Below are positions 5,922 through 18,596 of a DNA stretch of 20,622 bases, in pieces. A program made the position numbers and the translations under genes. The notes beneath the pieces were generated by a model, which saw only the letters and a list, made by a program, of their open reading frames with translations, had not been told where the DNA came from and did no database searches. Source of the DNA: a virus; IMG/VR virus record IMGVR_UViG_3300049825_000212, positions 1 through 20,622 of that record, one strand, 5' to 3'. The first letter of the stretch is position 1. The number at the start of each line of letters is the position of its first letter.

Positions 5922-5950
5922 CTTTTAAGCTGGCTAGCTGAAGCTGTCAA
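5922..5950 (-). promoter_or_regulatory. Minus-strand sigma70-type promoter
   Basis: On the minus strand TTGACA is followed, after 17 bases, by TAAAAG (4 of 6 to TATAAT). It would drive the genes at 5895 and 5702. Its -35 box lies within an 18-bp sequence repeated in inverted orientation at 6325-6342. Confidence 0.55.
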
Positions 5951-5961
5951 CAGCTAATTTG
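5944..5961 (-). repeat. Left copy of 18-bp inverted promoter repeat
   Basis: On the minus strand this reads CAAATTAGCTGTTGACAG, identical over 18 bases to plus-strand 6325-6342. The two copies face away from each other and bracket about 360 bp of AT-rich DNA. Each contains a TTGACA -35 box, so it may combine promoter and operator. Confidence 0.75.
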
Positions 5962-6051
5962 CGTTATGGGTTTCCCCATGCCGATAAATCGCCCTATTTT
6001 TTAATTCGGGCATTTTTCGCGTATAATGGGGATATGTTGAAGATATAAGGC

Positions 6052-6068
6052 GAGAATGGCTGTTTTCC
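6052..6068 (+). repeat. Direct repeat, copy A
   Basis: GAGAATGGCTGTTTTCC, matching 6230-6246 with one T/G difference. The copies lie 178 bases apart inside the AT-rich control region. Confidence 0.6.
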
Positions 6069-6229
6069 GCCAAATATAACGATATAACAAATATAATGGT
6101 ATAAGAGAGAAAGAGAGGGTATTCCCATAATTCGGGCAATTAAAATTCATCCGACTTATTAAATAGCCCGACTTAATTTAGGCCATTTCTCCCTAGTATT
6201 ATATTTATTATATTGTTATATTTTCTATA

Positions 6230-6246
6230 GAGAATGGCGGTTTTCC
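6230..6246 (+). repeat. Direct repeat, copy B
   Basis: GAGAATGGCGGTTTTCC, one mismatch from 6052-6068. It may be a binding site for a phage regulator or initiator. Confidence 0.6.
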
Positions 6247-6324
6247 AGGGTTTGCGCCGTATAATGGCCCTATTAAATCTGATATACGCGCTGAAGCGAG
6301 ACTAGCCCGCGCCAGGTTGAACTT

Positions 6325-6342
6325 CAAATTAGCTGTTGACAG
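6325..6342 (+). repeat. Right copy of 18-bp inverted promoter repeat
   Basis: CAAATTAGCTGTTGACAG, the exact reverse complement of 5944-5961. Identity stops sharply at both ends, which suggests selection for a defined site. Confidence 0.75.
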
Positions 6343-6364: not shown

Positions 6365-6441
6365 GGTTGCCGCTCATTGTGGGCAGGATAATCGCCAGCA
6401 AACTAGCCACTAAAATAGTTGTTGACATAGCCAAAATGTGA
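6355..6441 (+). CDS. Possible 28-aa hydrophobic peptide
   Basis: A GTG frame encodes a strongly hydrophobic and basic peptide opening MILWLPLIVGRIIASKLATK and ending IVVDIAKM. AGGAA precedes the GTG with nine bases of spacing. It looks like a small membrane peptide or type I toxin-like product. Against it, the frame overlaps the -10 box of the upstream promoter, so a transcript from that promoter would start after the GTG, and it uses several uncommon codons (ATA, CTA). I list it only as a candidate. Confidence 0.22.
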   Translation: MILWLPLIVGRIIASKLATKIVVDIAKM

Positions 6442-6475: not shown

Positions 6476-6682
6476 ATGGTCAACGTTTACGAATTTATGT
6501 TTGCTGACGGTCAAGTTTTCGGTTGCGGAACCGCTCTTGAATTGGCTTATTGGCAAGCTGAAGGTATCATTGACCCTGAAGCCAAAGTTGGTAAGCTTAT
6601 CGGCACTGAACCGGCTAGTGAAGACGAACGCCGCAAGACCCTTTGGGGAATTGGCGATTTTATGGACAAGGTTGCAGCTTAA
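6476..6682 (+). CDS. Hypothetical 68-aa protein, first gene of accessory operon
   Basis: Begins MVNVYEFMFADGQVFGCGTA at ATG 6476, with GGAG eight bases upstream. The product is acidic: an N-terminal beta segment is followed by ALELAYWQAEGIIDPEAKVG, where a small helix is likely, and it ends LWGIGDFMDKVAA. I recognise no family. Being promoter-proximal and only three bases before the methyltransferase-like gene, it could be an early accessory protein, possibly a host-defence inhibitor; that is speculation from position only. Confidence 0.65.
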   Translation: MVNVYEFMFADGQVFGCGTALELAYWQAEGIIDPEAKVGKLIGTEPASEDERRKTLWGIGDFMDKVAA

Positions 6683-9593: not shown

Positions 9594-9603
9594 AACCGGG
9601 CAA
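9594..9603 (+). promoter_or_regulatory. Leader motif AACCGGGCAA, copy 3
   Basis: Directly abuts ATG 9604 and follows GAAAGG, so it forms the whole spacer between ribosome site and start. Confidence 0.5.
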
Positions 9604-9846
9604 ATGTTCCAAATTGGAAAAGCGTTTTGCGCCAAATGCGAAGGGCGCGGCTTTCATTGGGTTGAAGGCAAGATTATCAGCCGCCGCGATGGCAGCGAGA
9701 TTGCTTCAACCGTTAGCGGCAATAAATGCCAGGCGTGCGGCGGCACTGGCGAAGTTGGGCTTTACTTGGTTACGCGCCGGGTTGCCCAATTCTTGATTGG
9801 CTTTACCGTGCTTTACATGGCCTGGCAATTCTTGCGGGTTATGTAA
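9604..9846 (+). CDS. Zinc-ribbon (DnaJ-type CxxCxGxG) membrane protein, 80 aa
   Basis: Two motifs, CAKCEGRG (9-16) and CQACGGTG (42-49), give four Cys that would bind one zinc, as in the DnaJ central domain. The C-terminus (about 58-77: RRVAQFLIGFTVLYMAWQFL) is one transmembrane helix, so the zinc ribbon would sit at the membrane. The role is unknown; a protein-protein adaptor is plausible. It is the last gene of the accessory operon and is followed by a strong hairpin. Confidence 0.65.
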   Translation: MFQIGKAFCAKCEGRGFHWVEGKIISRRDGSEIASTVSGNKCQACGGTGEVGLYLVTRRVAQFLIGFTVLYMAWQFLRVM

Positions 9847-10350: not shown

Positions 10351-10373
10351 AAAAAGGTGTTGACACTGGCGAA

Positions 10374-10403
10374 TTGACAACATAACTGAAAGCTTCCTAT
10401 AAC
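10374..10403 (+). promoter_or_regulatory. Strong sigma70-type promoter with tandem TTGACA boxes
   Basis: TTGACA (10374-10379), 18-base spacer, TATAAC (10398-10403, 5 of 6). A second TTGACA lies at 10360-10365. It drives the stand-alone gene at 10443. Confidence 0.6.
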
Positions 10404-16406: not shown

Positions 16407-17461
16407 TTGACCAAAAGCTTTTTGACCTTGTGCTAGCTAACGCCTTGGACGTTCTAAGGCTGTCAGCGCATGAACGCTTGCAAGTGACTAGGCGTCTAAA
16501 GGTTATGGAAAAAGAGTTGCTGAAGCGGTTGGCTGAAGAGCAACTTAGCATTGGCGAGCGCGCCAAGTTGGCCAAAATCATTAACGACACTGACGACATT
16601 ATTGATTTGGCTTATGGCCGCTTGCGCGATGATTTGAACGTTGTTGGCATTGCTGAAATGGTTGCTGACCATGCGGCTGAAGCGCTTTATGTCGTCTTTG
16701 GCCTTGAAACAATTGGCGTGCCCACAAGGGATTATTTCAAGTCGCTAGCAAGTGACGTTCTAATTCAGGGTGCGCCTAGCGCCGATTGGTGGCGCGGCCA
16801 AAGCGAGAATATCAAGCTGAAGTTCAGCGCTCAATTGCGTCAGGGATTAGCGAACGGCGAAACCAACCAACAAATCACCGCCCGGATTGTGGGCAAAGCT
16901 GGCGTGCCAGGCGTTATGGACATTGCCCGGCGAGATGCGTCTAGCCTTGTTCATACGTCAGTGCAAACCGTGGCCAATGACGCTAGGCGGCAAACGTTCA
17001 AGAGCAATGACGATTTGGTTAAAGGGCTTCGCCAAGTCAGCACTTTAGATAGTCATACAAGCTTGACTTGCGTTGCTTATAGCGGCGAAAGTTGGAACTT
17101 GGACTTTGAGCCGCTTGGCCCTAAAAAGCTCGCTTATAATGGCGGCACGCCGCGCCACTTCCTATGCCGGTCAGTTGAAGTGCCAATTACAAAGACGTTC
17201 AAAGAACTTGGCATTGACATACCTGAAGCACCGGGCACAACGCGCGCTAGCTCTAGTGGCCAAATTGACGTTAACACAAGCTTCAACGACTATCTTGAAC
17301 GCATGGGCAAGAAATATCAAAACACCGTGCTAGGTGAAGGCCGGGCTGACCTTTGGCGCAAAGGCAAAATCACCCTGAAAGATTTGGTTGACGGGCAGGG
17401 AAGGCCCGTTAGTTTGGAAGCGTTGCACAACCTAGTTAGGAAAAGGACAACCGGGCAATGA
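16403..17461 (+). CDS. Phage minor head / head morphogenesis protein (Mu gpF / SPP1 gp7-like)
   Basis: A 352-aa protein with a helical N-terminal half and the conserved MuF-type domain at about 175-260. The helix RDASSLVHTSVQTVANDARR is followed by STLDSHTSLTCVAYSGESWN (213-232) and TPRHFLCRSVEVPI (249-262), giving the usual pair of Cys. It follows the portal genes as expected. These proteins are carried in the head, near the portal, and may be ejected or act in assembly; which one here is unknown. The C-terminal part (LKDLVDGQGRPVSLEALHNL) is also found in family members. It overlaps both neighbours by ATGA. Confidence 0.8.
   Translation: MIDQKLFDLVLANALDVLRLSAHERLQVTRRLKVMEKELLKRLAEEQLSIGERAKLAKIINDTDDIIDLAYGRLRDDLNVVGIAEMVADHAAEALYVVFGLETIGVPTRDYFKSLASDVLIQGAPSADWWRGQSENIKLKFSAQLRQGLANGETNQQITARIVGKAGVPGVMDIARRDASSLVHTSVQTVANDARRQTFKSNDDLVKGLRQVSTLDSHTSLTCVAYSGESWNLDFEPLGPKKLAYNGGTPRHFLCRSVEVPITKTFKELGIDIPEAPGTTRASSSGQIDVNTSFNDYLERMGKKYQNTVLGEGRADLWRKGKITLKDLVDGQGRPVSLEALHNLVRKRTTGQ
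17449..17458 (+). promoter_or_regulatory. Leader motif AACCGGGCAA, copy 5
   Basis: The last A of the motif is the first base of ATG 17458; AAAAGGA lies just before it. It sits inside the last codons of the minor head gene. Confidence 0.5.
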
Positions 17462-17721: not shown

Positions 17722-17781
17722 GCCTAGCTCGCAATTTTGCAACCGGGCGCGGTTTTGCCGCATTCAAAAGGAACTGTTGAA

Positions 17782-18521: not shown

Positions 18522-18596
18522 GGTTGGGCCGCACCGTTGCCGGGCAAGTTGGGCTTGCTAGGCTTTTCAACACAAATCTTTTGGAAAGGCTTAGAA

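Follow-up and report, generated by a model that had tools for sequence, protein, structure and literature searches.

The ten-base sequence AACCGGGCAA recurs in gene leaders of a group of phages, always in the sense orientation and mostly abutting the start codon. Its position, orientation and conservation, its concerted change between lineages and its absence from other relatives are direct observations. We consider it probable, though far from certain, that AACCGGGCAA is a start-associated sequence, a sense-only mRNA element through which translation initiation of a set of genes is placed under common control. The analysis started from a 20,622-nt stretch of phage DNA (the window; positions 1–20,622 of IMG/VR record IMGVR_UViG_3300049825_000212, a contig that is probably incomplete) and was extended to relatives. 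Copies in gene leaders are called tags below.

Motif copies in the window

Five exact copies are present, all sense and all in leaders, with the coordinates, strands and distances to ATG listed in Table 1, as a sequence-only reading of this DNA had given them. The copy at 9594–9603 is directly preceded by the Shine–Dalgarno (SD) sequence AGAAAGG, with TTGACA 48 nt upstream, and the gene upstream of the 17458 ORFan overlaps it by 4 nt. Two near copies had also been proposed. That at 17741 holds up, since several relatives carry a tag in the orthologous leader, whereas that at 18538 is unsupported: it lies about 49 nt 5′ of the major capsid ATG, a gene that is tagged in no relative. Overlooked at the time was the copy at 2759–2768, which stands in an HTH-gene leader that is tagged in five relatives.

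Table 1. Motif copies and associated features in the window, and tagged genes behind terminator-like hairpins in other phages
Feature	Position	Strand	Context
Exact AACCGGGCAA	2574–2583	−	20 nt 5′ of ATG 2553, DUF7173/phrog_2480 gene (1987–2553); upstream type
Long hairpin, 15–16 bp stem	2584–2639	−	DUF7173 leader; ends directly 5′ of motif
One-mismatch copy AATCGGGCAA	2759–2768	+	8 nt 5′ of ATG 2777, small HTH-like gene (2777–2974)
Exact AACCGGGCAA	8042–8051	+	1 nt 5′ of ATG 8053, 60-aa ORFan; start-abutting type
Exact AACCGGGCAA	9594–9603	+	Adjoins ATG 9604 (0 nt), 80-aa CxxC protein gene; start-abutting type
Putative promoter region	10360–10403	+	TTGACA 10360–10365 and 10374–10379, TATAAC 10398–10403; just 5′ of 10407 motif
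Exact AACCGGGCAA	10407–10416	+	26 nt 5′ of ATG 10443, DUF7303/phrog_7597 gene; upstream type
Exact AACCGGGCAA	17449–17458	+	Overlaps ATG 17458 (−1 nt), 87-aa ORFan within operon; start-abutting type
Degenerate copy AACCGGGCGC	17741–17750	+	31 nt 5′ of ATG 17782, scaffold-position gene
Tagged post-terminator gene	G004 L288 11905; G006 L292 3358; G008 L297 1743; VCLv21 L322 30076		

The number of copies is a poor guide to their significance. The sequence-only reading put the chance expectation at 0.04, which is too low; exact AACCGGGCAA is expected about 0.09 times in the window under an order-1 Markov model, 0.2 times under order 3 and 0.5 times under order 4. When up to two mismatches are permitted, the window has 46 matches compared with 28 in dinucleotide shuffles. 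Eleven 10-mers, AACCGGGCAA included, have at least five copies, and because ten others reach this number, apparently through codon usage, copy number by itself is weak proof and was rejected as such. Position and conservation, not count, are decisive: each of the five exact copies falls in a leader, and among the leader 8-mers of the window AACCGGGC ranks first, with 6 of its 10 copies in leaders.

Leaders were compared between 12 carrier phage contigs (692 leaders) and 10 relatives that lack the motif (691 leaders). Exact AACCGGGCAA is present in the sense orientation in 44 of the carrier leaders, in the antisense orientation in none, and in none of the 691 non-carrier leaders, whereas 400 letter permutations of the motif averaged 0.08 leader copies in the 12 carriers (maximum 3); note that the carriers are related, such that these leader counts are not independent, and that G036 and G038 share many near-identical leaders. 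A total of 29 of the 44 copies end between −2 and +1 nt from the predicted start codon, compared with an average of 0.01 for the permutations, and the remaining copies mostly lie further upstream. In a one-mismatch scan the permutation maximum was 42, which presumably stems from permutations near the motif itself. Among seven close phages, sense leaders hold 27 of the 35 exact copies. Random or antisense copies in relatives, which would have spoken against the sequence-only reading, were looked for, and the motif stays sense-only and leader-specific. The proposal of a common control site is thus strongly supported, the motif being also conserved across phages and missing from non-carriers.

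Genes were called with a purpose-written simple caller that uses codon bias and rewards SD matches, and their starts are predictions; the deposited starts of phage Birtae match for three tags, and its deposited DUF7173 start lies upstream of the motif. Start-abutting tags use ATG in 53 of 54 cases, compared with 517 of 609 gene starts overall. Because GG occurs no more than 4 nt before the motif in 46 of these 54 tags, the AAGGA part is an ordinary SD and CCGGGCAA is extra. A de novo leader search, in which the motif was not given, returned AACCGGGC as the top 8-mer in the window, G003, G004, G006 and G007, placed it next after GAACCGGG in G008, and gave AACCGGGCA as the top 9-mer in VCLv21.

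Carriers, tagged genes and leader architecture

Terminase relatives of the window (L006–L085) were fetched, and nine whole contigs and three distant ones were read. Two relatives carry changed versions of the motif, GGAACCGGAA and AACATCGGCAA, in the same position. In G005, 5 of 6 copies of GGAACCGGAA lie in leaders with the same geometry, as do 8 of 14 copies of AGGAACCGGA(A) at one mismatch (log10 p of −9.3 before correction). The G009 version, ACATCGGCAA, has 4 of 5 copies in leaders and is a weaker claim than that for G005, because its log10 p of −5.7 precedes correction for about 7,800 tests. Such genome-wide changed versions are as expected if the site and its reader co-evolve. G001 (91% terminase identity) has two one-mismatch leader copies and an exact copy before its DUF7173 gene, and no copies were found in G015, G016 and G018. 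We also noticed tRNA-Gln(TTG) genes in G001, G007, G008 and G009 (L282, L295, L297 and L303), in place of which G005 has tRNA-Leu(TAA).

The carriers include two cultured phages, Variovorax phage VCLv21 (11 sites in leaders when one mismatch is allowed) and Sphingomonas phage Birtae (6–7 leader sites), and the motif is also found in IMG/VR contigs G034, G036, G038, G039 and G041. In these seven the portal is about 25 to 30% identical to that of the window and no terminase match is seen at the threshold used; the primase matches at 41 to 53% in all but the G039 fragment, and most have the DUF7173 gene. G015, G016, G018 and Caulobacter phage DMCA, in contrast, share the terminase (62–64%) but not the primase, and the motif is absent. 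The tag therefore goes with the early/replication module and not with the structural module, as these primase sharers are tagged and the terminase-only sharers are not. However, it is not general to all phages with that module, since the motif is missing from KL1, KP1, Halfdan, RcSpartan, Eidolon and Pfeifenkraut, all of which have the primase in common with the carriers. Mosaicism is also evident between the window and L322, L329 and L372–L383, in which similar early/replication modules are combined with structural modules of different kinds. Given that the hosts include both Variovorax and Sphingomonas and that structural modules differ, a single host-specific factor is unlikely. A leader habit of the hosts was considered and rejected, as bacterial AGGAACCGGGCAATG is mostly within genes among the matches listed (80 stretches), for example in a conserved coding context that recurs in Sphingomonadales and Pseudomonas.

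Tags fall into two classes. The start-abutting class (37 of 56 tags in a ten-phage set, variants included) follows the SD and runs into or nearly into the ATG. It marks smaller genes (median 88 aa, versus 135 aa for untagged genes; p = 0.001) that are mostly lineage-specific, many of them without relatives in the set. In the upstream class the motif precedes the SD and marks conserved genes, namely those for DUF7303, the scaffold-position protein and DUF7173, plus the divergent HTH gene in some phages. Orthologous DUF7173 leaders are tagged in G001, G004, G006, G007, G008, VCLv21, Birtae, G034, G036 and G038, DUF7303 orthologs in G002, G004, G006, G008 and others, and the scaffold-position leader in G001, G003, G006, G007 and G008. 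The suggestion that the motif marks an early or late class finds no support, because the early/replication region has tags and so does the structural region (the scaffold leader and a gene after an intrinsic terminator). Some tagged leaders lie inside operons with overlapping upstream genes, as at 17449 and at an 83-aa gene of G004 (L289), which argues for a per-gene, post-transcriptional effect.

Two tagged genes deserve separate mention. The 80-aa CxxC…CxxC protein (9604–9846) weakly resembles Q-like antiterminators (phrog_127, E = 4.5e-4), and G001 and G007 have a tagged gene related to it. A gene of 147–169 aa located right after a strong intrinsic-terminator-like hairpin carries a start-codon tag in several phages (Table 1).

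Of 56 tagged leaders, 13 have TTGAC 44 to 50 nt upstream of the motif, six of them at exactly −48. Should these be −35 boxes, the start of transcription would lie a short distance 5′ of the motif, which would place the motif in the mRNA. The −10 boxes of these predicted promoters are poorly conserved. Enrichment of TTGAC is lost after matching for intergenic gap (gap of at least 40: 16 of 35 versus 54 of 156, p = 0.25), indicating that tags are found mainly on genes that have space for a promoter. Thus, the fixed spacing of TTGAC alone stands out, not a general promoter enrichment.

Hairpins of about 12–17 bp end 0–7 nt before the motif in the DUF7173 leaders of the window, G001, G004, G005, G006, G007 and G008, with stem sequences that are unrelated among the seven phages, which suggests that this leader may be read as RNA. 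DUF7173 leaders of other phages have a short hairpin or none, and not every hairpin beats dinucleotide shuffles. A hairpin as a general feature 5′ of the motif was rejected, because few leaders other than that of DUF7173 have one.

Several noncoding regions were noted in addition. The divergent DUF7173/HTH region (2554–2776) folds far better than shuffles (z of −4.9 and −5.7 for the two strands) and has outward-pointing motif copies at both ends; neither ARAGORN nor Rfam detected a tRNA or known RNA there. The largely noncoding, AT-rich region 5957–6329 lies between the arms of an 18-bp perfect inverted repeat, each of which contains TAGCTGTTGACA (5945–5956, minus strand; 6330–6341, plus strand), and TAGTTGTTGACA is found at 6416–6427 (plus strand). 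TAG[CT]TGTTGAC recurs intergenically in G007, G008, VCLv21 and G034, several times before tagged leaders, and it and the 5957–6329 region possibly represent a phage promoter class or an origin. In L330, a phage contig that shares its sample with G002, a perfect inverted repeat (6506–6535) upstream of a 307-aa gene is made up of GAACCGGGCTA and its complement.

Explanations for the motif and candidate readers

About two-thirds of the exact copies fill the spacer between SD and ATG, in the order SD-AACCGGGCAA-ATG, and most others lie just upstream of the SD, where an initiating 30S subunit could still reach them. In the mechanism that we propose, the motif would be bound by a trans-acting factor, in all likelihood an RNA-binding protein encoded by the phage, that prevents ribosomes from loading or sets the time at which they do so, much like T4 RegA at sites overlapping AUG. 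We infer three things here, namely action at the RNA level, repression rather than activation, and a phage-encoded reader. The CCGGGC portion has no complement in the anti-SD tail and is unable to pair with it, so something else must read it. The fixed ATG register, the sense-only orientation and the copies within operons favor an RNA element at translation initiation, whereas the concerted change in lineages and the different hosts favor a reader encoded by the phage. Translational control, offered as an example by the sequence-only reading, is thus the best fit, with most copies in the SD–ATG spacer and some inside operons, although the binding factor it envisaged was not found: among the genes tested, no regulator-like gene is common to all carriers and missing from all non-carriers. 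Against reading at the RNA level, the fixed TTGAC position is also expected of a DNA site near promoters.

Two candidate readers were tried. The HTH protein is an unlikely one, as its orthologs diverge while the motif is constant and HTH homologs are present in non-carriers; nevertheless, the HTH gene, which most carriers tag, could be that of an autoregulated DNA-binding protein. The small CxxC protein of the replication region is not carrier-specific, given its homologs in Eidolon, Pfeifenkraut and Halfdan. Under a fuller version of the translational reading, which we put forward tentatively, the tags define a post-transcriptional regulon whose phage-encoded RNA-binding regulator co-evolves with the ten-base site, such that the whole set switches in concert between AACCGGGCAA, GGAACCGGAA and AACATCGGCAA and recently acquired ORFans join by gaining a tag.

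The main rival is a stoperator-like site in DNA, which we judge unlikely. A phage DNA-binding protein such as the HTH protein would bind the asymmetric site, placed 3′ of promoters and where genes adjoin, and block transcription initiation or elongation in a single direction, in the manner of cluster A mycobacteriophage repressors. The TTGAC spacing is compatible with this, as are the outward-pointing tags of the HTH gene and its divergent DUF7173 neighbor in several phages. Moreover, the stoperators of L5 and other cluster A phages are likewise many short asymmetric sites in short intergenic spaces with one orientation to transcription, but they act on DNA in temperate phages via the immunity repressor (PMC9283540). 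A stop site needs no fixed register to the ATG, yet most exact copies have one. Furthermore, HTH orthologs down to 33% identity, with varied recognition-helix residues, accompany an unchanged motif. The cluster A stoperator has the 13-bp asymmetric consensus GGTGGMTGTCAAG, which does not exceed chance frequency in the window (two matches at two mismatches, 0.8 expected). No integrase (PF00589) or serine recombinase (PF00239) was above the cut-off in the carriers searched, many of whose records may be fragments, so that no lysogeny or immunity role is evident from these records.

It is more doubtful still that no trans factor is involved and that the motif is merely this lineage's favored ribosome-binding leader, kept or copied with cassettes for good initiation. 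Most start-abutting copies do extend the SD directly, and tags are common on small accessory genes, which may have moved as cassettes. However, this explanation leaves the CCGGGC portion without a pairing partner, and it does not account for upstream-type copies outside the SD spacer, for non-homologous genes tagged in different phages, for the joint change of the whole tag set in G005 and G009, or for the untagged majority of genes in carriers. That the motif is the target of an antisense or small RNA with a UUGCCCGGUU seed, encoded by host or phage, is very improbable. An RNA of this kind, having multiple targets, would need many ribosome-binding sites to share one short, identical tag in the sense orientation, and the L330 inverted repeat does pair the motif with its complement; nevertheless, exact complements in the window are confined to the strand opposite the tags, even the best Rfam scores obtained for the window fall far short of the gathering score, and the hosts of the carriers differ. 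Finally, a chance repeat arising from base composition and codon usage has almost nothing to recommend it beyond the ten other repeated 10-mers, and is refuted by the permutation and non-carrier controls together with the leader-specific, sense-only occurrence and the conservation in relatives.

Comparison with known systems

The nearest known kind is the start-associated sequence (SAS) of cluster K mycobacteriophages, for which the literature gives no established mechanism (Pope et al. 2011, PMC3203893; PMC11373665; PMC12699233). AACCGGGCAA would work alike but is not a member, as consensus, SD content and distribution differ. Both are short, asymmetric, non-palindromic repeats immediately 5′ of start codons in one orientation (44 sense and 0 antisense copies here, 29 of the 44 at −2 to +1). 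Both are conserved beyond the SD, strongly prefer ATG, are absent from most other phages, and mark genes of different families that are patchily conserved between phages. A subset of SAS (ESAS) lies just downstream of SigA-like promoters, comparable to TTGAC at about −48 here. However, the 13-bp SAS consensus GGGATAGGAGCCC has no match in the window at up to two mismatches. The SD is inside the SAS, whereas here it precedes the start-abutting motif and follows the upstream one. In addition, SAS are confined to the non-structural arm of Mycobacterium phages, and ESAS have 17-bp inverted repeats; the tags described here belong to Proteobacteria phages, occur in both arms (the scaffold leader and post-terminator genes), are away from the start codon in about one-third of exact copies, and have no such repeats that we noticed.

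T4 offers two further parallels. RegA is a single phage protein, in competition with ribosomes for about 30 mRNA initiation regions (PMC3014915), and, as here, its sites overlap or lie just 5′ of the AUG in many mRNAs; they are A+U-rich and poorly conserved, whereas this motif is G+C-rich and nearly invariant. RegB is a phage RNase to which early mRNAs are marked out by a sequence conserved in their translation initiation regions (PMC3014915), but the consensus of that sequence, GGAGRAYARAA, is unlike this motif, tags here extend beyond early genes, and no nuclease came to light.

In the literature searched, the motif did not appear in print in any phage paper, and the only clear start-associated sequence encountered there is that of the cluster K mycobacteriophages. 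AACCGGGCAA would be a second, unrelated instance, which suggests that the marking of many genes at their start codons for one regulator arose more than once. If the regulon reading is true, the regulon spans phages of Alpha- and Betaproteobacteria with differing structural modules. The deposited Variovorax phage VCLv21, together with the natural motif variants, is a candidate test system for what reads such tags.
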